Positions 3,101-63,740 of a DNA stretch of 64,000 nucleotides are shown here, in pieces; position 1 is the stretch's first letter, and each line of letters opens with the position of its first letter. The position numbers and the translations under genes are program-made. Below the pieces are notes generated by a model. That model searched no databases. It saw only the letters and a list, made by a program, of their open reading frames with translations, and was not told where the DNA came from. The stretch is taken from the NCBI GenBank assembly GCA_018340805.1, contig JACMZG010001908.1, positions 38,534,223 to 38,598,222 on the forward strand, given 5' to 3'. The stretch is from Microvelia longipes. Taxonomy: Eukaryota; Arthropoda; Insecta; Hemiptera; Veliidae.

Positions 3101-3119
3101 TACTTTATACCGTTATAAC

Positions 3120-3156: not shown

Positions 3157-3171
3157 TTTTTAACAATTAGT

Positions 3172-3255
3172 ATTCCGAAGACCTGATGCTTGAACCCGAA
3201 ATCTCATGTATTAGGAGCGAATGCGTACCCACAACGCTATCAAGGCTTATGAATA
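3172..3255 (-). mobile_element. Possible tRNA-derived SINE head
   Basis: The minus strand reads GATAGCGTTGTGGGTACGC and then, about 40 bases on, TCGGGTTCAAGCATCAGG, an A-box/B-box-like pair. The spacing is tRNA-like but no acceptor stem pairs, so it is not called as a tRNA. Confidence 0.3.
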
Positions 3256-3927: not shown

Positions 3928-3957
3928 ACATAACAGACACATAAGTGTCTGTTATGT
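3928..3957. repeat. Short hairpin, 13-bp arms
   Basis: ACATAACAGACAC, loop ATAA, then the exact reverse complement. A second small stem (ACTTCT/AGAAGT) lies just upstream at 3902-3923. Confidence 0.65.
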
Positions 3958-7800: not shown

Positions 7801-9583
7801 CCTCACATCATAAAATTGTTATAGGATTTAACTTTCAGCTAGAAGGCGAAATTGGTATCATTAGAAAGCTGAGTAAATTTCCTAAAGGACAAACTACTAA
7901 CTATGTCAAATATTTTGGAACTACTGCCCAAAATTGCATTAAAATGATTTTTTAAAAAATGAATTTATGGAATTTTTGTAGTAGGGCATTAGAGGAAGTA
8001 AGGATGAGCAAAAGTTCAGCAAGAACAGAAAAAACTTCTCTTATGACTGCCCTTTAAGAAAATGTAATATTTTTATACATTCAATAGTCAAAAATTTTAA
8101 GCCATTCTTCCTAGAAGTTGGAAAACTGATATTTTTTTGGCATTTTTGCATATGTGTCCAATGTTAATTACATGGTACATAATAATTAAAAAATCTCTAA
8201 AGCAAGGGAAAGAGTGTTTTAGAGAAAAAATGTGTAAGAATAAAATAGGTTTATTTTACCTTCTAGAGTCTAAAAATCGTATTATTTAATTATTTTCGAA
8301 AATAAAATATTTTGTTAAAATAACACATTATTTTCGCTTTTATACGACAAAAATGATCAGTTTTTGCAACTTCCAGCGCAACAATAGCTTACATTTTTGA
8401 CTATTGAATGTATGAAAATATTTACATTTTCTTAAAGGGCAGTCATAAGAGAAGTTTTTTCCGTTCTTGGCTGAACTTTTGCTCATCTCTTATATCCTCT
8501 AATGCTCTACTACAAAAATTCCATAAAATTCATTTTTAAAAAAAAACATGCTTCCTGCAAAATTTGGGGCAGTAGTTCCAAAATATTTGACATAGTTAGT
8601 ACTTTGTCCTTTAGGAAATTTACTCAGCTTTCTAATGATACCAATTTCGCCTTTCTAGCTTGAATAGTTAAATCCCTATTAACAATTTTATGATGTGAGG
8701 TCAAATATTTTTTTGAAATATTAAATTTGACCTTGTGGGAAAACGGTTGGAGATCGGGGTTTATATTATAGGACATTTTTTGTTCCTTTTGAGGAGTACT
8801 ATCACCTCCTTTTCTGGTGGACACTTTATATGAAACACCCTGTATAACTATTAAAAGTAACTAAAAGTGTTAAAAATACTATACATAGGTAATAGTTACA
8901 ACAAAAATAATGATAATGGTGAATTTGAACTCGCATAAGTCAAACTATTTAGGGTAGAGACCATTTACGTAAGTTTTGAAAAATGTTATGTATAAATAAA
9001 ATTAATGTTTTCCTTAATTTTCATATAAAGTCAATAAAATGTAATGTCCATATATGTAATGTCAATATATTTATTTCCACCTCAAAAAATTATAATAAAT
9101 TTGCACTCGCATGAGTAAATTTATTTAGGGTAGAATATTTTGGAATGTCTAGGACCATGCTTTCTCCTTGATTTACATATGAAGTCGGTGCGCCTAAATG
9201 TTCTATACCTAGTATAGTGGTGTACTCAGTATTTATAGATTAACTTTTACATTAATGCTTTTTTTACCATCATACTTGAATAATAGCATAGGTTTGGTTC
9301 ATGCTGGGAGTTTTTAAAAACACATTAATTTAAATAATTAACCTACCAATAAAATGAATTCCCCCGAGTATACTGTTCCTTCTGACTGCGACAGGAAATT
9401 TAGTGAGATAAGAAACATGAACTCCTCCAAATACGCCACTACTTTGATCTCTAAAGCAAACATGATTGATAGAAAATAAATAAACTGCAAGCAGACTTCG
9501 TTCAAATTCTTAATTGAACGAACTTAAATTTACCCTTTAAAAGAAAGGTTGAGGAAGTGTTGTATAATATCAATGGTATATTA

Positions 9584-9629
<46 letters not shown>

Positions 9630-9690
9630 ATATTATATATATATATATGTATATGCGTGTGTGTGTTATGTATATAATTATGTATATATA

Positions 9691-9737
<47 letters not shown>

Positions 9738-11744
9738 TGTATATATTATTACTTTAATTATAGATGATAAAGTTTCGTAATAATTTAGGCATTATTATAT
9801 CATCATCATCAATAATAATTTGCTTTTCGTTCTATAGTATCTTTCCTTACTACAATTATACAATGATGACAAACACTAAAATAAAGAAATGAAAATAATA
9901 ATCTCACTTGAAGACCTCTGTCAAAGAGAAAGACAGTTTGCGAACATCGTCTTTTTCGTGTCTGTCTAGAGCACCGAAGAATCTTGACCAATTCCTACTG
10001 TAGCTAGATGAATGGACATCGAATTCTATTTCGTTGCACGAAGGCTTACAGTCGCAGAACATTGCTTTATTCAGTAAACTTGCCTCTCTTACTAAACACA
10101 ATTAAAATAAAATGTTTAGAATGATAAAAATTAAATAGTAGATATGGAGGGAGGGGGTTGGTATAGAGAATAGGTTGCCATCAAGAGTTTTACAATAAAT
10201 CCCCATAGATAATTAGATTTTTTAAATGTTATTCCTCTTGAGACTGTTACTGATTTTGAGGCTCGTAAAGCCCTCTGTGCATATTTCCACAGCCGCATTC
10301 TCTGGGTAGAGATAGACGATACTCGGCAGAGTAGAGATAATCTGTTTTAAATGCAGTAAATGGTTTTAGTAGAATAAGTGGATTGTTTTTCTAAAATCCT
10401 TATCAAGCCATTAAACTGTATAAGTTCTTGTAACAATCGTTTTTAATGCACAATAAAATTAAAATATTTTAATTAAAATGACTCTCTAACCTAAGCTTGA
10501 TTTAACGCATTCAAATCTATCGGTTCCACAAACAGCTGTGCCATTTTGTCCTGTAACAAAAGAAATAATTAGAAGTAATCACAAGCACTCGGCATAAGTG
10601 AAAAGCATACAAGTAGTGCGAAATAGTTGTACTTAATTTTAACTCTAAGTTATCTTGGAACTTAATTAACTTAAAACATCACCTAATTAACTTTATTTAA
10701 TTCTTAAAGGCTGTTCTGCTCTTGCCTTTTTTGAATACCCATAATTCCTTCGGTGTTATTGTCGTAGATACTTGAAATGTCTCAATTGTTTCAGGCATAT
10801 ATTACTAATGAGACCAGAGTCATCCTATTTTTCGAAACCATGCAAATAAACTTAATATTAATTCTTTATTAAACAATCTAAATACACTGGTCTTTTATCA
10901 AATCTCATAATAATCATATAACATTTGGTACTATTCTAGAAAAAAATGTGGCCATGATTGGGGAACAAAATATTTTTGCGAAATAAAAACGAAACTGTAG
11001 TGCATCACTAACTAATTGAGTAATCAAAAACTTGTTAAATAGTGATCCAACTGAGATTGGTGACCCAAGGTAAATTTATAAGCGTCATTTTTACGATGAG
11101 TTTCCTAAGAGAAATACTAAAATAAAAATTGTTGTATTTTGGTCTTACAGCAAAAGTGCCCCTTAACATTTTAACAGACAAAAAATGTTCTCGAGAACTC
11201 TGAGAATTGTTTTAGATGTAATTCTTTTATCATTTTGTATTTGTCTGCATCGCTCTGGTAGTTAGATATTTCACGAAAATCTTAGGTGAAGAAACTCGGT
11301 GTACAGGAACTTTTTATACAACCCCTCGAAAGCGGATTTGAATTTTATTTAAAAACCTCTAATAAGGAAAAAATCTAACATAGAATCATAATTACTTGGA
11401 TGATGCAGTGGTGAACATTTACATATTTCCAAAGTCCTATTAGCCTCACATTCCAAGTCACAATTATTTTGATTGTACTTCTGAAAATGCACTAATTGTC
11501 TTTCTGTTTCAAAGTAGCATCCTCTTTGAGTCGGTGTCCATTGCATTAAAATTTCACTTGTGTTTACTATTCTGCAAACATTAAAAGATGAGAAAATTGT
11601 CATAAGTAAGTGATATAGCAATCTAAAAGGCGGTTGTCGGTTTAAACTAGCCAACCCTAAAATAATTTGACCTCAAACGATAAAAATATTTTAAGATGTA
11701 AAGAAAAACAATTGGGACAGGTTGATTTTCCGGAAGAGTGATTA

Positions 11745-11795
<51 letters not shown>

Positions 11796-14700
11796 TAACA
11801 CACAATTACAAATATTTATACAATAGAATAAAACTAGATACATCGAGATATCAATTTAAAATAACCGAATAGAAATTTTGGCTGAGATATATATTTTCAT
11901 CCCAAAGCCAAGTAAGTATAAGCCCAAAAGCAATGTAATTTTTTTATCAGAATATTAAAACAAGGAAGCATATTAGCATGTTTAAAACTGAAATACTGAG
12001 TTTCAAAAATTAATTAAAATGTTAGCAAAACCTGTTTTCCTAATAAAGCAACTTAAGTAAAAAATAAAGTAGAAATCTGTCTGTTTCAAAGGACGTCATT
12101 ACATCAGGTCAGATTAGCAACAACTTAGCTTAATCAGGTCAAGCTAACAACAATACTGTAGCTTAATATAGGTCTTGAATAAAAATACAAAACGTAGATT
12201 TGGGATTGATTTGAGAAGTAAGTAAGACTAACCTTGGTTTCACTTGTGCTATTGTGTAGGAATCAAAATGAACAGGTATTTGTATGTGATTTGATCCTGG
12301 TAACTCATGCGGACCATGTACAACAACCTGCAAGCAGTAACTATAATAAAAATGGTATACACCTCAAAATGAATATATGCATAAATTATCTGCGTGAAAG
12401 ACACTTTTAAATCTATAAGTTTGCATATAAATGTTGTTTTCTTTCTACTATGATATTTTATTAAACAAATAAATCGTTTTTGAGATTAAACATCAATATT
12501 GACAGCCGCCTTCGTAGTTGAGATCGATTAAGTGTTAGTATTCTAATCTCTGACACCAGGAAGATCAGGGCAAAGCTCTTTATACGAGCATGTGGAGTTA
12601 AAAATTATAAGTAATTAGTACGTGCTATTAATTACTTAATTAATCGAATAAAAAAGAGATAGTGAAAAATAAATTCGATCAGTTTGCTGCTTCCAGGGTC
12701 TGAACAAGTAGTTTTCTCGCTCTATACTAGTGTACTCCCTTCAAATAATTTTTATAAAAATACTTTTAATAGTTAATTTAATTTTAGAGCTTAAACTCTT
12801 ACAGAAATTTCAGCTAAATCTCCCAAACAAGTTTGGTTAGGATCGGGAGACTTTACCAATATCCCAACTCCATTTTCAAATCCATTTCCACCTATCCTCC
12901 TTGGTAATCTGTCAGTAGGATAGTTCATCGGATAACCTTCATCTATAGACCATGTTACGTCTTCAGGATGATCATGATGACTGCCGTTGACGTGCATTGT
13001 TGAACTAAGAAAAAAAATCATTATCAGTGGCGTAACTAGAGAGGTGCAGAACCCGCAGTTGCGGGCAGGAGTAGGTAGGATTGCTCTTGTATGTTAATAG
13101 ATCTAGATATTAAAGATTTTAAAAGTAATAACTATAAAATATTTCTTTATTAAGCCACAAATTTCTATTAAAATGTAATGAAAATCCTACTCGCAGAACA
13201 TCTAGCTCAACTTTATAATGCTTTAATCGATAGTACCGACCCTCAGAACAATTTATTGTAAGGTATTTAGTATAAATAACCCATACATATAGTATATATG
13301 TATGTAGAGTATCACTGATACTTACAAATCTTAGAAAAAATATAATCTAACCTCAACACTCGGAACCTCTCCATTCTCACTTTAATAATAACACTATTAT
13401 TGGTTTTATATTGCAAACAGCAATATGAAAGCCTACGATGATAATTTGATTTACTTTAAATTATAAACAGGCAAGATTGATATTAATACAAGGCGCTCAA
13501 CCATTTCCCAATATTCGGTACGAAGTCTATAAACCCTAGCTTACTAAGAAAAATAAATATAATATGCTACGAATAACCGAGTGTTCTGAATAAAATGAGT
13601 TAATTAGATTTGAAACAAATCTAATGAAATTGTCATAGTTATTTGGGGCATAAGATTTGAACCTGTATGACATTATGTTTTGATGCTTTAGATACTTACT
13701 AATGAGTTGTATTGCGATAGAATATTTGATGAGGAACCATGTTATAAGTAAAACAGAACCCCATTCTAAATGAAGTTGGTTGGAATTTTTTGCACGGGTC
13801 ACGATCTATTTGGTTCATAAAAATGATTCCTTGAATTATTTTAGTGCACATCTCGTAGCTAAACATACTCTGTAACAAAAAAACATACGCGTAATTTTCT
13901 TAAATAAATACCCCAAAAATAATTACATTTGCAGCAACACTTCTTGTTCTTCTACAAATTTAAAATTTCATTACAAGTGATTAATTATTAATTAAATATA
14001 ACCTAAGTTTATAGCAATATTAAAAAACCTTGCCTTTAAAACTCTTTCAGCAGCTTCTTGTGAGACGTATTTCATTTCATCATCGGTACGTAAATGATTG
14101 CCTTTTGATCCATGACAAATGAATTTACCAAGATCCAACTCCCTATAATTATTTTCACAAAAATAAATTAATAAATATAGTATTTTTTTACGTTTTGTCT
14201 TTTACTCAATAGAAAAGTTAGAAAGAGGTTGATATTTAGGGTAAAATAATTATACTCCTAATGTAGCAGAAAAGCACATTTGGTAAAATTTAATTAGCTG
14301 GACAAAACAAAAACAAAAAACAATTGACAAATCGATGGTCGAATATTGTTTTCAATTTTCCTAATTTATTCCGTAGTTATGTAGGAAAAATATTGTGTTT
14401 GCACTGCAAATCCAAAACTGAGATTTCTCCTAAATGAGGAACACGTATGTTTTTCTTTTGTTGGAATATATTGTGAACCCTTATAGAAATGATGTTTGAT
14501 TAATGATGTTGATATGGTCCATTACACTTGATTTTATGGTATATTCATTACCGTTAGTGGATTTATATTTTATTTAGGTCTTGTCTCACACTATATTCCA
14601 CTTACGACGAGGAACAGCACATTGTAAAATATTTCAATTATACAAAATCTTATGCTTCTAAATAAATTTAAACGTTACCTACTGTTTATATAGTGGATTT

Positions 14701-17185
14701 GAAGCGTTTACGTCTGGATGAACAATAGATGGGTCTACAGGGCAAATAGACAGAGCCGGGAAGGGTATATAATGTATGTAAGTTGGTTCCGCGTCCAAGG
14801 ACACTATTACCGGACTTGTTTGGTAATTTGATATCTGTTCCATAACGGTTTTAACAGCAGCCACATAAACCACTGCTAATGTTAACAACCAGAATAATCT
14901 GAAAATAATAGTAAAACAAAGCTTTTTGACCAAACGATTATAAAAAGTCTTAATTATTTTTCAATTATATGTATGCAATGCGCAAAACCAGCCAAGTTGT
15001 CTCAGTTCAGCGCAAAGATTACATGTATAAGATAGCAGAGCAGAAGGTGAGTTATGTGTAAAACTAGAGTTTCTGGCGAACTCTAGTTTTTCTGGCGAAA
15101 ACTAGTCAGACGAAATAGAGTTTGTCAGGCATTGAAATGGGTACGTAAATTTTGGTACATATTTTGGTTAAAATGTATGACAACATTAATTAGACTTTAA
15201 TTAATTAATATCATTAATTAAGATTAATTAAATGAAATACTAAAAAGCTAATATGGAATAAAGGATGGAATTTAATGTTTACAATTAAAAATAGACTTTT
15301 AGAATAGAAATATACTTTTAGTAATATGACACACTTAAAATTAGGAGCAAATACTATTACGAAAATACTTATGTTAACATAAGAGCAAATACTATTACGA
15401 AAATACTTATGTTAACATAGGTATTTTCGTAAAAGTATTTGCTCCTATGTTAACATAAGTATTTTCGTAATAGTATTTGCTCCTATGTTAACATAGGTAT
15501 TTTCGTAATAGTATTTGATCCTATGTTAACATAGGAGCAAATACTATTACGAAAATACCTATGTTAACATAGGAGCAAATATTATTACGAAAATGCATAT
15601 GTTAACATAATCTTATATGTTTATATAGAAATGTAATACAATAATGAAAAATATTAAAAATAATACATAGAAATTAAATCAATTTTTTATATTAAATAAA
15701 TTAAATTTGCATGCTGCATGAATTTCCTTTGGATTGCGTGGTTCCGTAGTTAACAAACTATTTCTTGCTTAACAATCCGGTTTATGCTTTATAACTTAAG
15801 AAGTTACTCAATAATCAAGCACAACTCTTACTTAATTTTCTCTATTTTTTTATCAATGCGCACAATTATCCTGTTGGTTATACAAAACTATTCCTCTAAA
15901 ATTGGCAGTGCATACAATTATTTGCACTAGTAAAGCCCAGTAAGTATCTTTAAGATTTTAAAACACTGAACAAATGAGTTGTGAGTAGTGCTATAGATAA
16001 TTGAGTTACTGCCCAAGTTATAAAGCAGAAAGCGGAACCTTAAGCACGGAAACACGCTCTGCCCCATGTTCATTCAATTCATAGGCCCAAAAACATCGAA
16101 AACAACTCCCCTCTTAATATATTTTGTTTACAGGCCTTTTTAGGGTTAATTGGTCGTATCGGCAGCGGACTAGTTTAAATCGATACAGCGCTCCCTTAAA
16201 AAAAAATAGGTCCTTTCTTCAAAGCAAAAGATAATAACCTTGAATTTTACCCATTTTTGAAAATTTTATTGACAGCAAACCGGGTTAGTGACGTCACCAC
16301 AACCTTGTTTTCAGTAGGGTTCGTGTTCTTCCAAAAGTTGATTTTTCTACCAAGTTTGATTAAAAAATATTTAATTGTTTAATAATTATTATATATTTAT
16401 TATTTATTTAAAGATAAACACTAACTGAGCTTTAAATTAGTGCAAATAATGGTGTGCATTGCCAATTATACCTTTAAATGCATAGTATTGTATAACAAAC
16501 ATGTATTTCCTTTAAAAAGAAAGAAAACATGAGTTACGAGTAGTGATTGACAATTGAGCAACTGCACAAGCAATGAAGCATAACCTTAAGCAAGAAATGG
16601 ACTGTTTAGTATGGAAATACGCATTCAAAATAAAATTGGCCCGGCATGTAGACCGCTGCGCCAGACTTTTGCATGCACTGTACAGTATAAATTAGAGCTT
16701 GTTTTGTGCCTATAGAAAATGAAGAAAGACAGTCACCTTTGTTTTAAAAATTTTCAATTACAAAATAATTTTGATTTTACAATTTATTCTTCGTAATTTT
16801 TCTTACTTTTGTAAGAAAAATTGGCTCTGCCAAACTTCTTGATCTTTAATAAGCACAGAATTTTAACTTGGTAAACCAAAGTTAATTCAATGAACGTTAA
16901 ATAAGAATTTTCTCTATAATTGAATGTACCTTTTTTTAAGAAATCCTAATGGATTTTAACAAGAGGATCAGAGGGCTGGGGCTCTTTAAAGAAACGGTCC
17001 TCTTCAATCAGATAACGTGATTTACGATTAGTTTTAGCTTACCTTTCATAAATCGGTCTTTTTGGTTCACTTAAATATTTTAAGCCGTGCAGTGATGTGC
17101 TTTCAGCAAATCTCTTAAGTGTTCTTTTAACAATAGCAGTTGGGCTTAAAATATCTTCATTGTTTTTGTTTTCTTTTCTGTGATG
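4829..17185 (-). CDS. Pickpocket-like DEG/ENaC sodium channel, copy B (nearly complete, 11 exons)
   Basis: Exons, in gene order: 17043-17185, 14683-14898, 14034-14142, 13700-13869, 12803-13004, 12233-12327, 11396-11571, 10491-10550, 9908-10091, 9347-9450, 4829-4977. Every junction keeps phase, giving 535 codons plus TGA, close to the usual family length. In order: N-terminal block TSLHGLKYLSEPKRPIYER; M1 LFWLLTLAVVYVAAV; post-M1 FPALSICP; cysteine-rich extracellular domain (MCTKI, DPC, MGFCFTYN, QTC, GCYF, NNCDLEC, ICKCSP, VCGTD, FCDCKPSC); and M2 with its pore region, GGLLGLFLGFSFISLAEIVY, containing the G-x-S selectivity motif. The product should be a plasma-membrane Na+ channel subunit. 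The first exon shown starts in phase 0 without Met, so one 5' exon is missing. One intron (13870-14033) uses a GC donor. TTTATT at 4678-4683 could be the polyA signal on this strand. Confidence 0.9.
5070..5548. mobile_element. MITE with CAAAGAGAC ends
   Basis: About 24-bp terminal inverted repeats, starting CAAAGAGACTAATACTTAGA at the left. Flanks ATTATACT (5062-5069) and ACTATACT (5549-5556) match at 7 of 8 positions, suggesting an 8-bp hAT-type target duplication. Internal sequence is non-coding. It lies in the last intron of ppk copy B. Related termini occur at 25080-25411 and near 39695. Confidence 0.7.
6180..6790. repeat. Dispersed repeat family R2, long copy
   Basis: Contains ATTACATCGGATTCGCTACG, CGCTTCGCTCGTCCTTAAAT, a TTATGATGCAACAAA block, then CCTATAGACTGATTTTTGTA, CAACTCTCTAGCATAAATAC, ACTGGGAGCTACGA and CACCTGAAACGGATAATTTT. 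The same order recurs at 27870-28425 continued at 29117-29345. The class is unknown; no coding frame is shared. Confidence 0.6.
7656..8842. mobile_element. Foldback/MITE-like element with about 440-bp terminal inverted repeats
   Basis: Starts CAGGGTGTTTCATATAAAG and ends with its reverse complement. The arms (about 7656-8096 and 8391-8842) match with scattered differences and enclose about 300 bases of unique AT-rich sequence. TATA flanks each end, a likely target duplication. Open frames in the arms are mirror images of each other and look non-coding. It lies in the last, 4.4-kb intron of ppk copy B. Confidence 0.85.
9575..9735. repeat. (TA)n microsatellite
   Basis: Interrupted TA dinucleotides in a ppk copy B intron; the frames inside are low-complexity artefacts. 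Confidence 0.9.
11747..11796. repeat. (AT)n microsatellite
   Basis: About 24 AT units in the intron downstream of exon 12233-12327. Confidence 0.9.
15342..15608. repeat. 38-bp repeat array with switching orientation
   Basis: Seven units of about 38 bases, AGGAGCAAATACTATTACGA followed by AAATACCTATGTTAACAT, are arranged forward, forward, reverse, reverse, reverse, forward, forward. Neighbours are joined by the palindrome TATGTTAACATA. The array lies in a ppk copy B intron. Confidence 0.85.
15700..16200. repeat. Dispersed repeat family R1, diverged copy
   Basis: Carries CTAAAATTGGCAGTGC, ATTTGCACTAGTAAAGCCCA, AAGCACGGAAACACGC and AACATCGAAAACAACTCCCC in the R1 order; the tRNA-like segment is lacking. 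It lies in the ppk copy B intron between exons 17043-17185 and 14683-14898. A second short piece is at 16540-16680. Confidence 0.55.
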
Positions 17186-31220: not shown

Positions 31221-34200
31221 TCAAAAATATTTATATTTACAAATACGGCAGAGCCATTTTACAAAAAATAGGGAACATTAAAATATAATTTAAAACATGA
31301 AAAATAATGAACAATTATAAAATCATACTTTATTTAAAGTTTATTTTAAGAATGCTATTTTTAATTATTTTCTTCGAGTATTCAGGGTACTAAACAAAAT
31401 ATAATTTTGTTTAAAATAACTCTTCATGGTAGGAAACGAAAAAACTTATTTAATGAATTTTAGATATTTTACCTATACATATTTGTTGTAGTTATTAGTT
31501 TCCATTGCAAACAAATGGAATTAGTTTCCTTTATTTTCAGAAATACTACCAAAATTTAGACAACTGCAAAAAACGGACAAGCTGCCCTGTATTTCTCTAT
31601 ATCGGACCAGAAGCTCCTGCTCATCCGGTGCTGATGAAATATGGATCTTGGGTGGACCATGCTAAGACATTTGGAGCAATTATGTTTCTCTTGGAGCACA
31701 GATATTACGGAGAAAGCCATCCAACTCAGTATGATGTTTAATTAGTTGAACATGAATTAATTATTTTTGTATAATTTAAAGAAATACTAAAAGAAATATA
31801 TACCTAGTGTTATATGAGAACTTAAACCAATTGAATAAGAAACTAATAATTCTTTCATCCCCTTAAAAGTTTTTGAAATTCTCGTTTGACATATTTTATG
31901 GTACTTAAGATAATTATGTGTGTTTTACATATAATTAGGATGGGTACTAATTTTATCTGCGTGTTTCAGGGATCTTTCTGTAGCTAATTTAAAATACTTA
32001 AGTAGCCAGCAAGCCCTGGCTGACATAGCATATTTTATAGAAGGTATGAGTTCTAAGTACAAGTTAAATAAAAAAAATAAATGGATATTATTCGGAGGCA
32101 GTTATGCTGGATCCTTAGCGGCCTGGTCCAGGATGAAGTATCCACATTTAGTTCACGCTGCCGTTTCTTCTAGCGCTCCTCTTAAAGCTCAAATAGACTT
32201 TAAAGGTAAAAATGCCATTTTTTAGCGTTTTAATATTTTATAAGCTTCATAGACAAATAATTCTGGCACGGTGGTCCGGTCCGCATGTCGGGCGCATTTC
32301 CTTTGGATGCGTGTTTCCGTGCTTTTTACATTATATAAGTTTACAACTACAAAATAAATAATTCCGCTGCGGTGGCCCGCTGTCGGGAAAATTTCATTTA
32401 GAATGCGTGTTTTGATGCTAAACAACTCATTTCTTGCTTATGCAAGAACCATGCCCATTGCGTGGTTCCTGTTCATGCTTTAGAACCTAAGCAGTTACTC
32501 AATTGCCAAGCACTGCTCGTAACTCATTTTGTCAGTATTTTCCAAAGGAAATGCGCATAATCATCCAGTTGTTGTACAAAATTATGCATCTAAAATTAGA
32601 AGTACGCACTATTATTTGTACTAGTTTAAAGCTTACTTATCTTTAAGCTTAGTCAGTTATCTTTAAAGGTTTTAGCGCATTTCCTTTGGAAAATACAGAC
32701 AAAATGAGTTACGAGCAGTGCTTGACAATTGAGTAACTGCTTAAGTTCTAAAGCATGAACCGCGGAACCACGCAATGGGCATGGTTCTTGCATAAGCAAG
32801 AAATGGGTTGTTTAGCACGGAAACACGCATTCTAAATGAAATTCGCCCGACAGCGGACCACCGCGCCGGAATTATTTATTTAGTAGTTGTAAACTTATAT
32901 AATGTAAAAAGCACGGAAACACGCATCCAAAGGAAATTCGCCCGACATGCGGACCACCGCGCCAGAATTTTTATTTTAAGTGTAGGTATATATCTAATCT
33001 AAACAGAAGAGCCGTGAATTTCTATGTTTCCTCTCATGCTTTTTTAAGCGATTATACATATTTTCTCTGACTCTTATAGTCTAGTAAAAACTAGGAACAA
33101 CACGTGTCCCCAGTGTTAAACCAATGCTCCACACACTATAAACTACAAGGCAGAAACAGTATAGTATTATAATGAATCTACTACGAGGGTCCTAAATTTT
33201 GCCTATACTTAGTTTCATTTAGGGTAAGGGATCTTTAACGGGTACCTGAGAACGTACAGACTCGAGACCACCGGCTTTACGTCCCTTCTGAAGGACGTGG
33301 TACCCAGAATTTTTATCCCTCTCATAAAAATCCCAGAGGCCCGTGCTGGGATTGAACCCATGACTAAATAAACTCGAAAGTTTAAAGCCCATTCATTCTG
33401 TGTATTGGCCGCGCACCTTAACCAGTACACCACGGGTGAATCTTTGTATTGAGAGGGAACTTTGTGTACTTATTTATTACGTAAAGGCATAATTTTTTAA
33501 AAAGCATTCATTTGTACTAAATTTAAATTTAATTAGATCAATGTGATAATTTTCCAATTTTCACATTTTTGTTAAAACGCACAAAAGTCATTTGATAAAC
33601 AATGAATTTGTGCTGATTATGAAATGAAACTTAGTACATATGTATTTGTCGTACAAATGCCTAATCATACGCATGCCGCAGCTCAACCCGATCGCAACAT
33701 TTTTGCGGGGTTTTCAATTTTTTTAAGGTACTGATTTTCGAACAAAATTTAACTCTCTAGCAAAAATACACAGGGAACTAACTGATAACAGACACACACA
33801 CATATAGATACAGGAGGTCTTAAAACACCTGACACGGATAATTTCGGTGACATCCAGGTTTCATATTTTGTTGCAAACACAATTTTTTTCCTATATACCT
33901 ACGGTATAAAGGAGAGAAAGTAAAAAAGTGTAGGTCAGAATAGTTTTACCAATATCTTTACAATAGAAATGGTGGATGAGCTAAATTGAAGCCGATACCA
34001 ATATCTAACAGTAGCAACAGTCATAAATCTAAAATAGAGAACATTAAGAGTTTTTTAAGTTTTTAAGATGGGCTGATGCTAATTATTTGATTAGTCATTA
34101 TTAATCACAAATTAAAGATTAACGATTATTAATTGCTTTATTTATTTTCAGAGTATTTTCAAGTAGTTGATAAAGTTTTAGAAGATAATAACAAAGATTG

Positions 34201-34500
34201 CTCAAAGTCAGTTCACGAAGCCTTTTTAAAATTACAAAATATGTTAGCCACTGATGAGGGAAAGAAAAATATCAATAAATTGTTTAAGTAAGTTTACTTG
34301 GTCTAATAATACATAATCAATTAGATATCGCAGATAAAGTAAGTTTGTATATTCACACATGAACAAAATAACAAAAATGACATTACTTTGATCTTCGAGT
34401 ATAGTATGGCATGGACTAAGCTGCTCGCCTTTTTTTTTCTTTATAAGTTTCTGGCTTCTTTACTTCTTTATGTAATGTAATTATTTCTACTTATATATGT

Positions 34501-34551
<51 letters not shown>

Positions 34552-37500
34552 TGTGTGTATGTTATAAAATTATATGTACATGTAAATACATAATCTAAAA
34601 TATTAATTTGTTTTCTTTGTTTTCATTTTCAGCATATGCGATAATTATGACAGACAAAGCAAGGACGACGTGTCTATGTTGTTGTTATCATTAGCTACCC
34701 CTTTTATTAGCTGTGTTCAGTATGACAAAATAGACTGTCAGGCTAAAAATATCTGTCAACTGATGACGAATTCCTCAATATCTGATCCTTTACAGAGGTG
34801 AATTTAAGGAAATTTTATTTTAATTGCTACATTGTGGAGGATTGAGGCTTTTAAGTAATATATGAGAATAAAGATAAGATATGGGCTTGGTGTAACATTT
34901 ATAGAAACCCTGAGATAGAACAGATAGAACTGATAGAACAGATGACTTTGTAGCAGTTCTTTTATTATCTACAACGATCACTTTACATTTTCTGTTTTGA
35001 GTAACCTTACTCTAGCTTAATTGCAAAACTGTTAATTTTTCTTGGACACATTGCCCTAAACCTTACTCCTAGACATTAATACTAACTGCTATAAATTGAC
35101 CAGACATTGGTTTATCATTTAATATAAAAACTACTAATTATACATTTGGTTGTATTTCGACAGGTTTGTGGTTTTAAATAAAATGTCAAATGAAGCTGGG
35201 ATGGAATGCATGAACATTAATTTTAAAGACACTGTAGCTGCTTATAGTGAGACATCTTGGGATTCTCCCGTGTCTCAAGGAGGTAAACTTAATTATTATT
35301 TTACATACGTACAGAAAATATTAGTCTGCAGTGGTAAAAGAATAGTAATGTAACAACTCGTACTTAAGATTGTTGATAATACAAAAATTAGGTGTGGTAA
35401 ACCTCTGCACTTACTTCGGATTCGCTAATCTCCATTTTACTTAGGATAATGAGATGAACATTTTGATTCAGACTAATTTATTGGTTTTTAAATAATACTG
35501 CATGCGTGACAAATTTCAATGGCGTTTTATGATAATTATAAAAAATATTTTACAGAGAGCAAAACTAAGCCTAAAGGTTATTTTTGTAGTTTTGACTCTC
35601 TAGATTTAACATACTTGGAGCTATAGGCACAGGGAAGGAGCTATACACACGCACAAAGAGATAGTTGTCTGTTTGGTTTTAAAACGACTGAAACTCTGGC
35701 GAAATTTCGGTTTCACATTTTTGCTGCAATCACATTACTTTTAAACGGGTTAAGTGATGAAAACTATACAGACCTACTACTTACGTTCAAATAGTATAAT
35801 CATATTTATTGCTACTTAATAAATAGAGCTACACCTCAAGATTAGTTTATCTGAAAATATTCCCAAGTTATAAGAATTTAGGGTGTAAGCCAAAATAACG
35901 AGAGTGAACAACAGATTCCCAATTGATTTATTCTAATAATATCCTGTCCAAAAATATCTTATATTTTCCAACATTTTTAATCTCCTTATTCTTTATGCAT
36001 TTATGAAATGTTATGTATGGTAGTAAAATAAACATTGTAGGTAACCTAAGTTATGGGAAATAATTTCTAAAAGAACGTCTGAAATGGAAACATGGACAAG
36101 TCCGTTTCTAGTGCTTTAATAATACTTTAGGTAATTTAAGCAGTAGCGATCAACTTAAACAATGATGATGAAACATTTTGCATAATAAGAAACAACGTAA
36201 CGTAACAAGAGTAACAAATTTATATTTTTTGTTTTAACAGAGAGACAATGGCTATATCAGACATGTACAGAATTTGGATACTATGTAACTTCAACTGCAA
36301 AAAATGATTTATTTGGACCTGGTATACCTCTGAGTAGTTTCTTAAATCAATGTACAGATATATTTGGAGAGAAGTATGTTTATCTATTAATTAATTAAAT
36401 ACGGGCCTTCGACTTGTACCTGCTAAACGGGCGGGGCGCGAAAATTTGCTGAAACCTGAAAAGGGTTATTTACTAATATTAATTCGTTATTCGTTTGATA
36501 TGTTAAAATTTATAAATGACCTTTACATAAGAACATGGATTTCTGTGTTTGACCACTGTAAATGTGACCATTTAATTAAAGGCATAGAGTTATTAAGTTT
36601 GTAACGATTAGTAAATCGAATTGGATGGACTTCAAAATTCGAATTTCGAGGTTTCTACAAATGAGAATATATTTATAACTTTAATTATAATGTTTAAACA
36701 ATTTTAAGAGGCATACATTCGACGCGATTTTTTACGATTATAGCACATAGTATTGCAGCCGGACTTACTCTACAGTGTGTGCTATTCATATTAAATATTT
36801 GAATAGTTCTGTCACTTAGAATTTATTGCAATTAGAAAGTATTTATACATTTTATTACTATTTATTTAACAGTAAAGTATATTTAGAATTTATTGGTAAT
36901 AATATGCTTGCGACACCCCATCGGAGGTCAAAAGTTACTCAATTTGTGATTATTTACGCCAAACAATAACAGAATTTTATGAAGGGAACTAAAATGTTAG
37001 TTACAAACGCTTAGTTTACTGTAAAAACGTTGATTTTTGTTACAGTTTTAACGAGAAAAATCTGCAGAATGATATAGTTCGAACTAACATGATGTATGGA
37101 TCGTTGGATATACAAGTAACACGAGTGCTATATACGCATGGTTCTTACGATCCTTGGCATGCATTAGGTATTACTAAATCACCATACCCTCAATCACCAG
37201 CCATATTTATACAAGGTACTTATTGAATTCAATGCTTATAATACTTATTTTTATTCAATGTTGAATGTGGTGATAAAAACTTCTGATAACTTCTAAAGAC
37301 CGCTGAGAGCATCTACTTCCTGTTTCTCCTGTTTAAATAGGGAAAGACTTTAAAATATTATTAATGGCGACATTTTTAAGATGTATTATGCTGTTAAAGA
37401 TGTTTCCGCTATTACTTCGTTGAAAAAGATACTAATCGCGTCCGAGGTCACTTTTAACTGATGACAAAAATCTTTAAAAATAAATGTTTCACTATAATCA

Positions 37501-40139: not shown

Positions 40140-40535
40140 TATCGTTCCGTCGACAAATCACTTCGTCGACAAATCATTCCATCGACAAATCATAGCGTCG
40201 ACAAATCATTGCGTCGACAAATCGTTCCATCGACAAATAATTTGAGTTTGTCGACGGAATGATTTGTCGACGGAACAAATCAGGTTGTTGCGTCGACAAA
40301 TCACTCCGTCGACAAGTTATTTGTCGACGTAATGAGTTGTCGATGGTACGATACGAGTTGTTGCGTCGACAAATCATTCCGTCGACAAATCACTCCGTCG
40401 ACAAATCATTGGATCGACAAGTTATTTGTCGACGGAATGATTTGTAACGCAACAACTCGTTTCGTTCCGTCGACAAATTTTTCCGTCGACTGTCGACGGA
40501 GTGATTTGTCGACGGAATGATTTGTCGACGGAACG
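40140..40535. repeat. 16-bp GTCGACAAATCATTCC array in both orientations
   Basis: About 24 units, each holding the palindrome GTCGAC or a variant (ATCGAC, GTCGAT) followed by AAATCATTCC-like bases, in blocks of opposite orientation. Short open frames on both strands here arise from the 16-base period and are not genes. Confidence 0.85.
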
Positions 40536-48255: not shown

Positions 48256-48290
<35 letters not shown>

Positions 48291-48302
48291 TAGGGGAAAA
48301 GA

Positions 48303-48790
48303 GCGTTCTGGGACCGCCTCCTCCTCACTCATAACCTTCCACTATAACCACCCTTATCCACCTATAACCTCCCCTCACTCATATCCTTCCTTATAATTCT
48401 CTTTCAACCTATAACCTACACTTGTAACCACCTATAACTTCCTTATCACCTTTCTTATCACGTCTCTTATCCACCTATAACCTCTCTTATCACCTCTCTT
48501 ATCAACCTATAACCTTCCACCTGTAACCACCTATAACCTACCTTATAACCTTCCTTATCACCTCTCTTATCACCTATAACCTACCTTATCCACTTATAAC
48601 CTACCTTATAACATCCCTTATCACCTATAACCTTCCATCTGTAACCTACCCTATCCACTTAAAAACCTCCCTTACCTATTAGCTCTGACTCCCCCCCCCC
48701 TTTATTACTTTCCTCATCAGATCCCTTATCAACTTATAACCCCGCATAACCTCGCTTATCTATTAGCTCTGACCACCCCTAACCGGCGCA
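48303..48790. repeat. Degenerate C-rich minisatellite (CCTATAACCT / CCTTATCAC)
   Basis: Irregular tandem runs of CCACCTATAACCT, CCTCTCTTATCA and CCTTCCTTATAA with very little G on the plus strand. The period varies between about 9 and 13 bases. It follows a (TA)n tract at 48258-48289. Confidence 0.65.
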
Positions 48791-48889
48791 ATCCCTTTAT
48801 GAGATATTACTTATTTCTAACAGGTTGTGACGTGTAATTAATAGCTTAATAAAAAATAAGGGTTCTGATAAGGACCATCCTCAATATGA

Positions 48890-49112
48890 GAACATGGGAG
48901 TGTGCCTTTCTTAGTTTAAAAGTAAGAAGGCTTAAAGCCTTCCCACCACGTCAAGGTGAAGGCACATCGGGGAAGATAGAGTTCGCTAATCACTATGTCT
49001 AATGTCTAGCCTTTAACTCATAAAATATAACTGGACCAGCCAGTTGTTGAACCCGTGCACCTTCGATTACGAGTCAAAGACGCTAACCACTAGACCAGCC
49101 GAACTCTAAGAA
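48890..49112 (-). mobile_element. SINE-like tRNA-derived head, third family
   Basis: On the minus strand AGTTCGGCTGGTCTAGTGGT TAGCG is an A-box-type start and GCACGGGTTCAACAAC a B box, about 55 bases apart. Internal short inverted segments follow (AGAAGGCTT/AAGCCTTC). It lies just upstream of the CRE-like array. Confidence 0.5.
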
Positions 49113-49307
49113 TGTTATTCTATTTCTACTTATAAGTTGTATACTGCTCGATGTTAATTCGATGTCGTCACACTAATGCAATATTTAACGGGGAATACAG
49201 GTTTTGACAAAAAATTATTAAACCGAATTAATTTATAAATTGTGTGTATGTTTCTAAATTTTTGTATTCAGTTTTAATAAAGGCTTATTTATATTTATTT
49301 ATTTATA

Positions 49308-49680
49308 CAGGTTTGGACACGTTTGTTCGATGACGTCACACTAATGTAGTTTTTTAACGATAATTACAGGTTTGGACACGTTTATGCCATGACGTCACAC
49401 TAATGCAATTTTTAACGATAATTACAGGTTTGGACACGTTTATGCCATGACGTCACACTAATGCAATATTTAACGATAGTTACAGGTTTGGACACGTTTA
49501 TGACATGACGTCACACTAATGCAATATTTAACGATAATTACAGGTTTGGACACGTTTATGCAATGACGTCACACTAATGCAAGTTATATCATGTTTCAAC
49601 AGGTTTTGACATGTTTATGCGATTACGTTACACTAATGCAAGTTAATGATTCAACAGGTTTTGACATGTTTATGCAAGTT
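49308..49680 (+). repeat. 58-59 bp tandem array carrying TGACGTCA (CRE/ATF-like) sites
   Basis: Units begin with ACAGGTTTGGACACG, then a palindromic TGACGTCA followed by CACTAATGCAA. Intact TGACGTCA occurs at 49331, 49390, 49448, 49506 and 49564, that is every 58-59 bases; a decayed version (TTACGTTA) follows at 49623. One more unit, with TGTCGTCA, lies at about 49158-49210 and is separated from the array by roughly 100 bases of other sequence. The array ends about 25 bases before the TATA box at 49705, so it sits where an upstream enhancer would. Confidence 0.8.
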
Positions 49681-49704
49681 TTTAAGGAGTGGGGGGAGCG
49701 AGGG

Positions 49705-49740
49705 TATATAAGGCGGTGAGGAACCAACATCGTGGTCATT
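49705..49740 (+). promoter_or_regulatory. TATA box and arthropod initiator of the zinc-finger gene
   Basis: TATATAAG at 49705-49712 is followed 33 bases later by TCATT (A at 49738), matching the arthropod initiator TCAKT at standard spacing. A GC-richer stretch surrounds the TATA box. The 5' UTR would run from about 49738 to 49956; a T-rich tract ending in TTTCAG at 49922-49927 could be a 5' UTR splice acceptor. Confidence 0.6.
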
Positions 49741-49956
49741 TACTCAACGGAAGTCAATGTGATACAATAGTTCTTGTTGCGTAATTGATTTCTAATTTTC
49801 TTTTCTTCATCTGAAAATTATTTAGTTTAAAAAGTTTTTTAACTTATTAACTTATAATCAAGTTTTTTTAGCCTTTTAATTAATAATCAAGTTTTTTTTT
49901 TTTTTAATTCAAAGTGATTAATTTCAGTGTTATTAAGTTATAGTTTAAGTGACACA

Positions 49957-50534
49957 ATGTTTAAGTGTGCTAAATGCAGTTCATCTTTTACCCGCTTGGA
50001 TAGCTTGCGTAGACATGAAGATTCTTGTTTATCTGGCAGCAGTTTAAGCTGTGATTCTTGCGGATCCAGCTACTCTCGTAAAGACAATTTATTTCGACAT
50101 ATAAAAACTGTTCTCTCGATGATAAGAAAAACGCGTGTGCCAAGTGCGGTAAAAATTTCAGCCGTCCGGATAATAGAAAGCGCCATGAAAGTGCGTGCGG
50201 TTCAACAAGTGAACTTGAATGTGAATCGTGTGGTGAAACGTTTAGTCGTATAGATAACAAAAATAGACACGAAGCTACATGTTCAGTACCTTTCGAAGGC
50301 AAGTGCGATGTGTGCGATCATCCCTTTACAAATAGATACAATTTATCCAGGCATCAAAAGAATTGTGGGGCAGCCACCTGAAAAGAAGAAGGCCGAACCA
50401 AAAATATCAACACTACTAGGGACCAAGCCAGATCAAGAGGGGATTACGCCGTACGAAACAGCATTTAAAAACAGGTTACAATCTTTTTTCATTAGATCCG
50501 ATACAAATGATGACTTGACAAATTTTCTAGAGTC
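49957..50534 (+). CDS. C2HC zinc-finger protein, frame broken twice, running into an assembly gap
   Basis: Start ATG at 49957 (ACACAATG context). Five finger units spaced about 25-30 residues apart each have the form C-x2-C ... H-x3-4-C: FKCAKCSSSF/RRHEDSC, LSCDSCGSSY, NACAKCGKNF/KRHESAC, LECESCGETF/NRHEATC and GKCDVCDHPF/SRHQKNC. Fingers 1-2 and the segment after finger 5 share one frame; fingers 3-5 lie in another. The breaks fall at the A5 run 50103-50107 and the G4 run 50367-50370, where a -1 and a +1 length change cancel. After the fingers comes a lysine-rich linker and a segment ETAFKNRLQSFFI...FLES that meets the N run. Similar N-terminal fingers plus an 'AF-R-FF...FL' segment occur, from memory, in uncharacterised insect proteins, some near type-B DNA polymerase genes of Maverick-like elements; that is only a hypothesis here. 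TATA box and initiator lie about 250 bases upstream. Confidence 0.6.
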
Positions 50535-51500
50535 NNNNNNNNNNNNNNNNNNNNNNNNNNNNNNNNNNNNNNNNNNNNNNNNNNNNNNNNNNNNNNNNNN
50601 NNNNNNNNNNNNNNNNNNNNNNNNNNNNNNNNNNNNNNNNNNNNNNNNNNNNNNNNNNNNNNNNNNNNNNNNNNNNNNNNNNNNNNNNNNNNNNNNNNNN
50701 NNNNNNNNNNNNNNNNNNNNNNNNNNNNNNNNNNNNNNNNNNNNNNNNNNNNNNNNNNNNNNNNNNNNNNNNNNNNNNNNNNNNNNNNNNNNNNNNNNNN
50801 NNNNNNNNNNNNNNNNNNNNNNNNNNNNNNNNNNNNNNNNNNNNNNNNNNNNNNNNNNNNNNNNNNNNNNNNNNNNNNNNNNNNNNNNNNNNNNNNNNNN
50901 NNNNNNNNNNNNNNNNNNNNNNNNNNNNNNNNNNNNNNNNNNNNNNNNNNNNNNNNNNNNNNNNNNNNNNNNNNNNNNNNNNNNNNNNNNNNNNNNNNNN
51001 NNNNNNNNNNNNNNNNNNNNNNNNNNNNNNNNNNNNNNNNNNNNNNNNNNNNNNNNNNNNNNNNNNNNNNNNNNNNNNNNNNNNNNNNNNNNNNNNNNNN
51101 NNNNNNNNNNNNNNNNNNNNNNNNNNNNNNNNNNNNNNNNNNNNNNNNNNNNNNNNNNNNNNNNNNNNNNNNNNNNNNNNNNNNNNNNNNNNNNNNNNNN
51201 NNNNNNNNNNNNNNNNNNNNNNNNNNNNNNNNNNNNNNNNNNNNNNNNNNNNNNNNNNNNNNNNNNNNNNNNNNNNNNNNNNNNNNNNNNNNNNNNNNNN
51301 NNNNNNNNNNNNNNNNNNNNNNNNNNNNNNNNNNNNNNNNNNNNNNNNNNNNNNNNNNNNNNNNNNNNNNNNNNNNNNNNNNNNNNNNNNNNNNNNNNNN
51401 NNNNNNNNNNNNNNNNNNNNNNNNNNNNNNNNNNNNNNNNNNNNNNNNNNNNNNNNNNNNNNNNNNNNNNNNNNNNNNNNNNNNNNNNNNNNNNNNNNNN
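50535..51500. other. Assembly gap (966 N)
   Basis: The gap begins inside the zinc-finger reading frame and ends in (TA)-rich sequence, so the 3' part of that gene is unknown. Confidence 1.
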
Positions 51501-53315: not shown

Positions 53316-56300
53316 TTCATCTATAAATAGTGTTTGATCCACTAAATTTCGATTTTATAATTTTTGGTATTTTGAAAAAAATGACTTACAAATTTTCAAA
53401 CTTTGACAACCTTCCCCTGTATTATTTGATTAAATGGCTTTTCGCTGTACTTTTCTAAACTTTAATTAACCTTAAGATATAAGATCCTTGACATTAGGTT
53501 AAGCATTAAGTAATTATGACAATCTGAGGACTAGCAAAGCATGTCTAAAGTCATAATACCCTTAGATATTTTATCAGTATTTCTCCTGAAGTTGAGCGTA
53601 GCGAGACCGAAGTAATACCACACTAAGCTTCGTATAATCTTAACATTCTAAAGACGATCTATGCGAGTCCGAAGTGGTAAAGAAAAGTACCACGGTACAT
53701 CGTACCCGAATTTGTTTAAGGTTACAAATCCTGAACTGTTATTATCATAGTAGTGTGAATCTACAGTGTTATGAAGGCAGAAGTGAATACATTTACCTAA
53801 CTAATTGTTATATTTAATTTAATAACTTATAAACCTAGACCTATTCTTTAAAAAATAATTAAGAAACGTTTGCCGAAAACTCAGCCCTAAGCAATCTGAT
53901 TAATTTGATAAGAAGTTTCAGGACAAAATGATAGCTTAAAAATCCTTACTTTTTAATATAAATAAAATAACAAAATTGCCATTAAAGCAGCATTTAAATA
54001 ATATCTATTTGAATAACTTAAATATAAATCCCAGACAAAATTAAACTCCTCTATATTAGTCCAAAAGCTGGACCAGAAAATGTGACTTATTGTGAACTAC
54101 TTCAAACCAAATATTTCTAAAAATATACCTATCAAATTATGAAAAATAACTATAGTCTGCCGATCCAGAGTTAAGCCCTTCAAATGATTGCGCAAACTTA
54201 AAATTTTATTAAAAATTTCGATTTTTTATAATCAAGTAGTTCCCTGTGGGTCGTGTGCAAAACATGAAGAAAACATTTTTTAAAGTTGATAAAATGTTCT
54301 ATAAAACAAGTGTCTTACTCATCAAAATCGGATAACTGCAACCAAAGTTAGACTCTTTCAAAACATTAAAAAATGGTAATTAATGCCAGTCAGCGAATTT
54401 CTTTGAAAAAATAGTGCTTATGAGCATTTTGGCCATGTAACCAAATTATAACTTATTGTTTTTATCCGGTTTCTACGAAAAAAACACTGCTTTTTATAGG
54501 AAAATGATATTATCAGCTTTTAAAAAAAGTTTTCTTCATGTTGTGTACACAATCTACAGGGAACCACTACTAGGAAACTGGAATTTTGTGCGATTATCTA
54601 ATATCCGAGCGCATTCATCATGAAAGGGCTCCCACTCTGGATAGGCGCACTATGCTTTCCTTCATAATTAGGTATTATTTTAAAAAAGATTGAAGTTTGA
54701 AGTAGTACAAAATGAGTCACATTTTTTAGGCCTGGCTCTTTGACTATATATATTTAGTCATTTATATATATATTTTCCAAATATGTAAAGGACAAATAAT
54801 ACGGACATTTTAAGTATTTTAATAATAAAATTCTTATTTTTCATATATTGTATGGTATGAGAAACCACTATGACGGTTTCTTACCTTACACAGCAAAAGG
54901 AAACTCCAAATTTAATAAACAATGTTAATCTAACCTACTACTGTAGGAAAATTACTTCATCTCTTATACCATGAAGTAACCTTACCACTTTCTCCTCTTA
55001 TATGATTTAGACACATATAAAACAAGTTGAAATGCCACAAAAATAGGATCTGCTATTCATTTCATAGCTTATTAATTTTGAAGACTTAGTATAGAACAAA
55101 AATTACTAAGCGAAAAATAAACTCTCTAACAAAGTGGAAGTCCAAGAAAGATGGATTATCCCTACTAAAGTTATAAGTTTGTGATATTCTTTCATCTTAA
55201 AAAAATCGCTCTTTGATTAGCCAATTTATAATTGTACTAAAAAATAATTAATCAGATTGAATTCAATTTTCATAAAGTATGAAATTCACGGTACTACGTG
55301 CCAAACTTTACAAAACTAGTTTTTATTCGAGATCATCTTTTTAAAGTAATTTTAGGTATGGTTACATCAAGCAATTTTTACCTTTTATTTACTTTGTGAA
55401 AATACAATTTTTACTCGTTCTATTAATACAGTCCGACGAGGCATCGTTTACATTAATACAAAACAGAAGAACAACTATAGATTATACCTAACGTGCGCTT
55501 TATATCTAACATAAAATTTATAATTATTATACAATAACAATTAATCTACATCAATTATACACATATTTTAAATATAAAACTATTGAATATCTATCTATAC
55601 AAATATTTTTAGATACATGACAAATAGCCTTGCAACGTTTAGCCAATAAATATCTGAAATATATAAGTTACAATTTATTTTGCTACGCTGCAGTTTTACT
55701 TGATAGTTATTATTTTTTAAGTTTGCTATTACCAATACCTGGTATACTTTAATTTTAATCATTAGTGATAATTTTGTTGGTTCAGTCATTATAATTTTTC
55801 ATTTGGCAACAATAAATATATTTCTAAAATTATTAATTTAATTATCAATAATTGCAGTTCAATTTTGTATTTTTTTAGATTTTCCTGTTCCTTAATTTTA
55901 AAATATTTTTTTTAATAGTCGAAAGAATGACGATTTTAGAGAAAATTAAAAAGTTAAAATTATGTTCTCTTAAACCTCTCATTAATTTAGATTACATTTA
56001 TCCAAATTAAATTAAAATAAATGGATAATATCAAAAGTTGTATTACCCAGTTCTTTCTCTAAAATCATTGATATTATTAATTTTTGATTTTATAAAAACT
56101 AAACGCATTTGGTAAATGAATTTTTTAGGTTGCAAAAGTATCCAAGTCAATAGAAGTTTCAAGAAAAGTATACGAAGAAGTTACCTAAAAAGCCTAAGCT
56201 GGCAAGTTCCTGATTTGAACTGGACCTGGCAGTTCTTGTTCTCTGCTCTTGTGTTGAAATAAAAGAAACAAGAAAGAAATTTAATCTATTGATTTTTGAA

Positions 56301-62559: not shown

Positions 62560-63740
62560 TCTCTCCACTGATGTTATTGTATTATGACAAAGCCAGCTTT
62601 CAGACTTGACAGTCCATCATCAATATTATACGGCACCGGATGGATTGGCTATGGGTGCCCCCTTGTCAGGACTTATGGCAGAAATTTTTATGCATCACTT
62701 TTTTAAGCAGTTTATATTAGGTAGAGGGAATCGTTTTCGCGCTAAGATCTTAGCCTGGAGACGCTATGTAGATGATGTTTTCTGCATTTGGGATGAACTT
62801 TAGACCAACTCAGCGCTTTGTGGACTATCTTAATGATTGCATACCGCGTATAAAGTTCACTTACGAAGTAGAAGTGCAAAAAACGCTAACTACCTGGATC
62901 TTAGCGTTACTAGGTCTAATAATCGACTAACTTTTGTATATTTAGAAAGCCCACGACTACCGATGCTATTATACCTTTTAATTCTTACCACCCATGGTCA
63001 CATAAGATGGCAGCTATACATGCTTTAGTCAACAGGTTATTAGTGGTACCTCTAGAACAGCAAGCATATGATAAGGAACTGGCTAATATTAACACATTGC
63101 TGGTCTAACGGATACGAATAATGATGTTGTGAACAGGATTATAAACAAGCATAAGAGAAAGCAGCGTTACAACATATAAATACGGTGGTGGAGGCGTTAC
63201 GGCTGAGAATGCGTTACAATGGCGTTCGTTGCCTTATATGGGTCTCGTTTCAGAGAGAATAGGTAAGGTGATGAGAAAGAATGGGTTTAATGTTGGTTTT
63301 CGGAATTTGCATTCGCTACGTGGCGCTCTTTCACACGCCAAGGATAAAATCGAGCCTACTGATAAAAGTGGTATTTATGCCCTTAAGTGTGGAGGCTGTG
63401 GAAGTGTCTATGTAGGCCAAACTGGTAGAGCCTACTTTACTAGACTTAAAGAGCACTTCCGCAAGCAAAATAGTAGGTTCTATCAGCACATCACTGAAGA
63501 GGACCATATAAGCCACAAGCACGAGGTTGCGTTTCTACATATGGCCCAAAAAGGCCGTATTATGAATTTCTTGGAGAATGTTGAAATTGCAAGGAATGTA
63601 AAGGAAAGTGTGATAAAGCGCTTAACAAGAAGGGGAAAGCGGGGCGGTGACGATGATTCAGAGTGCTTTAGCTAAAGCGCCTCGCTTCCCTTCAGTCGAT
63701 TTCAACGAGTTGGACGACTCAATCACTTCCGTCTCTTAAC
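62560..63740 (+). mobile_element. 5'-truncated Penelope-like element: RT fragment plus GIY-YIG endonuclease
   Basis: The first part encodes DGLAMGAPLSGLMAEIFM and RYVDDVFCIW (RT palm motifs), then in other frames FVDYLNDCIPRIKF, NYLDLSVTR and FNSYHPWSHK, typical of Penelope RT. The last frame, 63229-63675, encodes a GIY-YIG nuclease (SGIYALKCGGCGSVYVGQTG, then R and EH downstream) with the CGGC pair of the Penelope zinc-binding insert, and ends at 63673-63675. At least three frame changes separate the parts, so it is inactive as assembled. Loss of the 5' end is usual for this group. It lies 1.6 kb upstream of the visible arrestin-domain exons, on the opposite strand. Confidence 0.88.

Follow-up and report, generated by a model that had tools for sequence, protein, structure and literature searches.

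A candidate polymerase-only relative of Polinton/Maverick elements, with zinc fingers that may read its own ends

Introduction

Polinton/Maverick elements measure 15-20 kb (PMC4028283), and vertebrate Mavericks are described with 6-bp target duplications and (AGT)2 ends (PMC8097293). Deleted or incomplete forms have been reported among insect Mavericks (PMC8504770, PMC9783078), and some adintoviruses carry separate zinc-finger genes (PMC11071296). The window analysed here, the whole stretch of 64,000 nucleotides presented above, contains a tandem array of 58-bp units bearing the cAMP response element (CRE), followed by a promoter and the start of a zinc-finger gene. This array and this gene form the left end of a dispersed mobile element of about 7.4 kb that starts at window position 48289 and appears, from its sequence, to be a reduced, polymerase-only relative of Polinton/Maverick elements and adintoviruses.

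To the authors' knowledge, it is not settled by what means the polymerase of a Polinton/Maverick element locates its own ends; here, an answer may be readable from the sequence. It is considered likely that this polymerase-only, virus-like transposon has a replicative polymerase equipped with a modular zinc-finger reader of its origin, that swapping of modules lets fingers and terminal triplets co-evolve, leaving the lineages mutually blind, and that end-only palindromic parasites keeping the ends of a lineage can exploit this reader. If true, it would provide a natural example of a protein-DNA code for the specificity of replication origins that can be read from sequence. The case would further illustrate how a virus-like element can be reduced to its polymerase and its two ends, how a change of origin specificity separates lineages, and how palindromic parasites enter a genome through strand switching. 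In the literature covered, with subscription papers and Repbase largely outside its scope, neither a finger-bearing polymerase-only family nor co-variation of fingers and termini is described; priority is not established thereby.

The likeness to Polinton/Maverick elements lies in a family-B polymerase, terminal inverted repeats, 6-bp duplications and termini of the AGT type, (AGT)2 in the description cited and AGTAGG here (PMC8097293). Differences are the size (7.4 kb versus 15-20 kb; PMC4028283), the fusion of CCHC fingers to the polymerase, and the fact that no integrase or capsid open reading frame (ORF) was seen in the copies read. A larger relative in the same genome, L063, resembles adintoviruses in its rve integrase with a chromodomain (PMC11071296), whereas the polymerase of the element carries fingers at its N-terminus and a hexon was not seen in the copies read. 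Finally, the three CRE-bearing 21-bp repeats of human T-lymphotropic virus 1 (HTLV-1) are similar as tandem units in a promoter region (PMC12564054), but no relationship exists and the palindrome of the element is not kept across copies.

Copies, ends and target duplications

Copies were searched in the same 665-Mb genome as the window. The array gave 53 matches, several within one locus and some arranged as facing pairs, and 20 regions were read after this search. The terminal repeat yielded 92 matches against none with a reversed control, and a piece of the polymerase at least 103 (79 of 463 candidates scored). Six of the eight complete copies measure 7187-7609 bp, the remaining two 4499 and 4996 bp. 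The inverted repeats of the element have AG/AGT termini: AGTAGGGG starts 18 of the 19 ends examined and AGTAGGGC the other one. Exact target duplications of 6 bp surround six of the eight complete copies, and the other two share 5 bp with a one-base shift. The dispersed array copies, terminal repeats and target duplications that the original prediction had proposed to look for all exist, and its suspicion of a mobile or virus-like origin, with Maverick/Polinton as the lead, is borne out by these features together with a DNA_pol_B_2 domain in the same protein as the fingers.

The window copy of the element starts within an (AT)n tract, and the right repeat of the copy L030 matches positions 48278-48922 and 48934-48975 in inverted orientation. 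Window positions 48527-50534 are 99.1% identical to L030 across 2013 columns, with a single mismatch and 13 gap openings. This near-identity indicates that both copies are very recent relatives. Since the differences are almost solely insertions and deletions (indels), many of these, perhaps including the frame breaks of the gene, may be assembly errors. L030 runs gap-free past the part homologous to the window into a long coding region. Within the window, no right terminal repeat was found and the 60 bases following the assembly gap are 93% AT; thus, the gap probably conceals either the remainder of the element or a deletion.

A zinc-finger polymerase as the sole recognisable gene

The only gene recognisable in the copies fuses five C-C-H-C fingers to a family-B DNA polymerase. 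The original prediction had reported an ORF with five fingers and a segment 'ETAFKNRLQSFF'. Both are present, the fingers having the spacing C-x2-C-x12-H-x3-C and matching Pfam zf-C2H2 (8.1e-14 and 2.4e-9), but the window does not hold them in one ORF: two apparent frame breaks place fingers 1-2 and the tail in one frame and fingers 3-5 in another, so that four fingers are complete and finger 2 is cut. In L030, overlapping open pieces of 761 and 548 amino acids (aa) carry the five fingers and the polymerase. DNA_pol_B_2 (PF03175), the polymerase family of Polinton/Maverick elements, exceeds its cut-off in pieces of L030 (5.8e-7), L043 (8.4e-9) and L031 (1.8e-16). The C-terminal piece of L030 shares 55% identity with the L063 polymerase, and both contain YMDTDS, taken here to be a polymerase motif. 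None of the seven copies read has an intact polymerase gene. As two stop-free polymerase matches belong to open frames 1301 and 1307 aa long, intact genes probably exist in the genome. The ratio of nonsynonymous to synonymous substitution rates (dN/dS) is 0.14-0.36 across the 15 pairs formed by six copies.

No capsid, ATPase or protease gene was recognised by eye among the ORFs of at least 90 aa in the seven copies. A hexon-like ORF was not recognised there either, remote homology not being probed, and no OTU domain stands among the Pfam matches, which show fingers instead. The rve integrase was likewise not seen in the element copies read and is present in L063 (positions 39-8159), which combines a 56% identical polymerase with CCHC fingers, rve (1.2e-15) and Chromo (2.3e-6). 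Another relative, L065 (positions 2635-9899), joins a 42% identical finger-bearing polymerase to a phospholipase A2-like gene (1.2e-9). Both are larger Polinton/adintovirus-like relatives, with ends beyond the sequence read.

Correspondence between fingers and terminal triplets

In the published recognition code of zinc fingers, arginine reads guanine, asparagine reads adenine, and the residue four before the first histidine reads the central base (PMC12264921). Fingers 2, 3 and 4 of L030 have R-D-N-R helices and finger 1 has R-D-S-R. Read through the code, fingers 4 to 1 predict GAG GAG GAG G(C/T)G, i.e., GAGGAGGAGG(C/T)G. The pairing of small residues with C or T is the weaker part of this code. 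With at most one mismatch, this site, or the version of it that belongs to the lineage, is confined to the terminal repeats (bases 27-40, about 29 bp from the ends) in all five copies scanned, against at most 0.03 occurrences expected per copy; the ends were already in view when the code was derived, so this first fit was not blind.

The comparison was extended to 15 copies, in which the helix residue of fingers 1-3 agrees with the matching terminal base in 44 of 45 cells. The other five ways of pairing fingers with triplets reach 26-34 of 45, and permuting the termini among the seven distinct combinations attains the observed agreement in 4 of 5040 cases. Asparagine goes with A, and serine, threonine or glycine with C or T. 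Predictions fixed in advance held in 16 of 17 cells, covering the fingers of L037 and L038 deduced from their ends and the ends of L034, L036, L039 and L047/L048 deduced from their fingers; the L047/L048 ends were assigned by position, and C542 was not blind. Left out of the table were L046 (fingers unreadable), L040, L042 and L049 (no fingers) and L044/L045 (none found). L032 has two tandem 5' ends, of which the inner one, with a complete finger set, was counted and fits, whereas the outer Ser-Ser set would not fit its end. A genome search with the Asn-type finger-2 pattern returned 11 clear matches, namely eight copies already in hand and three with no listed end nearby, in addition to three weak ones. 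It is probable from the agreement of fingers and triplets that the fingers bring the polymerase to the origin of its own element.

The CRE array and the core promoter

The 58-bp unit is repeated 5.8 times at 49306-49641 with a 90% match. As originally predicted, exact TGACGTCA palindromes stand at a spacing of 58-59 bp (49331, 49390, 49448, 49506 and 49564), flanked by decayed units (TGTCGTCA on the left, TTACGTTA on the right). The window contains nine exact occurrences against 0.24 expected from shuffles. The four outside the array (2804, 5202, 16289 and 28376) show no common context. The units in the centre of the array are nearly identical and those at its edges are decayed, a pattern typical of a minisatellite; hence, the five CREs are one site multiplied by minisatellite growth and not five independent events.

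The emphasis of the original prediction on the CREs as the functional unit is not supported. An exact palindrome stands in 49 of 84 array units from 13 arrays (88 stretches matched, four lying in the gene being left out) and in 5 of the 22 units of the four most divergent arrays (L041, L043, L044 and L046), so that it is not conserved across related copies as would be expected of a CREB-responsive array. Column conservation in this first alignment, built on 13 copies, is biased by its anchor, and a second alignment used another one. With that CRE-independent anchor, 36 of 99 distinct units have an exact CRE, and conservation of the left half-site is below that of the right one and of the adjoining CACTAATGCAA. 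The derivatives L040, L042 and L049 share one identical junction, lack promoter and gene, and keep array units on both sides of the junction, with exact CREs in L040 and L042 and mostly decayed ones in L049. Binding of the array by the element's own fingers is not supported, as the predicted 12-mer is confined to the terminal repeats of the five copies scanned.

Downstream of the array, TATATAA at 49705 is followed by TCATTT, the A of which lies 33 bases further. Both elements named in the original prediction are present, although the pairing alone is not rarer than chance (2 in the window on both strands versus 1.7 expected). What makes the core promoter a well-supported reading is that ATATAAGG and TCGTGGTCATTTACTCAACGG are unchanged in 21 of 21 aligned rows, from 20 places since L044 and L045 overlap.

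Palindromic derivatives

Four palindromic derivatives were encountered (L038, L039, L047 and L048), one of them with its own 6-bp target duplication. L038 (positions 174-6174) consists of two left halves face to face, flanked by the duplication GGTTAA. Its arms are 99.0% identical over 2944 columns, and a divergence of 1% speaks against a mere duplication made by the assembly, although part of it could stem from indel errors. In L039, the two joined halves are right ones, and the junction lies within the array. In their form, these palindromes match what strand switching on linear, displacement-copied DNA would be expected to produce. Linear DNA viruses with protein priming, such as adenovirus, have copy-back defective genomes that are palindromes of one end; L038 resembles these in this respect, but differs in being inserted in a chromosome with a duplication of its own.

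Proposed mechanism and alternatives

In the proposed mechanism, host RNA polymerase II would transcribe the polymerase gene from the TATA/initiator promoter. Fingers 4 to 1 of the product would then dock at GAGGAGGAGG(C/T)G, a site some 29 bp inward of each end, and the docked polymerase would start a protein-primed, strand-displacing copying of the linear element, protein priming being suggested by the family to which the polymerase belongs and by the terminal repeats. The larger relatives may provide in trans an integrase that inserts the product and generates the 6-bp duplications. Helices of the fingers and triplets of the termini would change together, such that each lineage copies mainly its own ends, and strand switching during copying would give the palindromic derivatives, inserted as units. 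Taken as a whole, this explanation of a polymerase-only element with end-docking fingers, an integrase acting in trans and strand-switch palindromes is judged very probable. Several observations weigh against it. Alone, the C-terminal polymerase pieces match neither DNA_pol_B_2 nor any polymerase of known structure (best E 0.11), and dN/dS rises to 0.31-0.95 in pairs with the decayed L046 (67-123 codons). That integrase and capsid are missing was judged by eye from the ORFs of at least 90 aa in seven copies, not every ORF having been profile-scanned. As for the fingers, the failed cell is finger 1 of L039, an asparagine facing GTG, located inside an expanded CCN repeat, and finger 5 fits the next triplet only with a one-base skip. 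At their left ends, L030 and L043 have small indels in or beside the site; a single end was taken from each copy, for these two the one free of an indel. The copies are related and the tree backbone has a support of 22-65%, so that 15 copies represent fewer independent events.

One could have suspected a zinc-finger gene of the host with a minisatellite lying by chance in its promoter, as the fingers match C2H2 families and the tail lies mostly within the gap, but the many dispersed copies with the same ends, their target duplications and the fused polymerase refute it. More thought is required for the view that the 7-kb copies are decayed remnants of larger adintovirus/Polinton insertions, with no family of their own. 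L063 with its integrase and L065 with its phospholipase A2-like gene do reside in the same genome, and incomplete Mavericks are on record for insects. This view is nevertheless quite improbable, because six of the eight copies fall in one length class with both ends and a target duplication, the polymerase evolves under purifying selection between copies, and no capsid or integrase ORF of at least 90 aa was seen in the seven copies read.

Agreement of fingers and triplets might also reflect shared inheritance through linkage, with no recognition involved, as is conceivable for related copies with a weak tree backbone and finger modules that differ along whole helices, as if exchanged as blocks. 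Linkage alone would not explain why the changes follow the direction of the known code, why the colinear antiparallel pairing is the best of six, why the advance predictions held, or why the site is confined to the ends; moreover, finger 1 and its triplet differ jointly in the strongly supported clade L035/L034/L036. Linkage is thus a rather unlikely explanation, and recognition of the ends by the fingers is preferred. For the array, a main function as a CREB/ATF enhancer as in HTLV-1 is possible, if somewhat doubtful: its position just upstream of a conserved promoter and the viral precedent speak for it, whereas the decay of the palindrome and the poorly kept left half-site (the least kept part of the unit core) speak against it, and the units retained by L040, L042 and L049 in the absence of promoter and gene suggest a cis role in copying, or hitch-hiking. 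The array may therefore be an enhancer, act in cis during copying, or merely hitch-hike.

Feature coordinates and other observations

Table 1. Features of the element in the window
Feature	Position	Strand	Basis or remark
Left terminal inverted repeat	48289..48975	+	Outer part 48289-48922, inner remnant 48934-48975; begins AGTAGGGG; boundary common to copies
Predicted docking site of fingers 4-3-2-1, GAGGAGGAGGCG	48315..48326	-	Recognition code and genome match C558:38582536-38582558
CCTATAACCTACC-type minisatellite within the terminal repeat	48398..48674	none	Tandem Repeats Finder (TRF); lies in the inverted repeat of other copies too
Transfer RNA (tRNA)-like stretch, part of the element	49021..49110	-	By eye; also in other copies, e.g., L040, L042
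58-bp array with TGACGTCACACTAATGCAA and decayed edge units	49153..49690	+	Repeat finding and unit alignments
Core promoter TATATAAGG and TCATTT initiator	49705..49741	+	ATATAAGG and the initiator stretch invariant across aligned rows
5' end of the zinc-finger/DNA polymerase B gene	49957..50534	+	Five CCHC fingers and start of the tail; two apparent frame breaks; continues into DNA_pol_B_2 in L030
Assembly gap, rest of the element hidden or lost	50535..51500	none	No right terminal repeat in the window

The tRNA-like stretch is common to copies of the element, and its reading as a short interspersed nuclear element was dropped for this reason; ARAGORN found no tRNA in the window or in seven copies. 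Protein databases returned nothing for the fingers or for the tail of the finger ORF, and neither Pfam nor PDB gave a match for this tail. Scans of IMG/VR with the tail, the fingers and the C-terminal polymerase were empty, and one further scan hit just an unrelated 18-residue match. The array-unit pattern had no match in IMG/VR or GTDB contigs, virus and prokaryote collections with little bearing on animals, where two finger-spacing patterns retrieved unrelated sequences only. The Rfam search was negative.

Downstream of the polymerase gene, L030 carries a minisatellite of about 630 bp (3359-3989), the repeats of which recur in the end-only derivatives L040 and L042. Elsewhere in the window, exons of amiloride-sensitive sodium channel and S28 serine carboxypeptidase genes lie at 109-14960 (minus strand) and 31499-37223 (plus strand). 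The sodium channel exons identify the host as an animal, which is probably an insect. An inverted pair of about 500 bp with 92% identity occupies 7652-8136 and 8349-8846, and arrays of a 16-bp unit with GTCGAC, present in both orientations, form long inverted repeats at 40141-40533. An inverted repeat at 54235-54568, with 50-nt arms (86%) 234 nt apart, is possibly a small inverted-repeat element. At 63145-63675, an ORF of Penelope-like appearance has a weak GIY-YIG match, below the cut-off.
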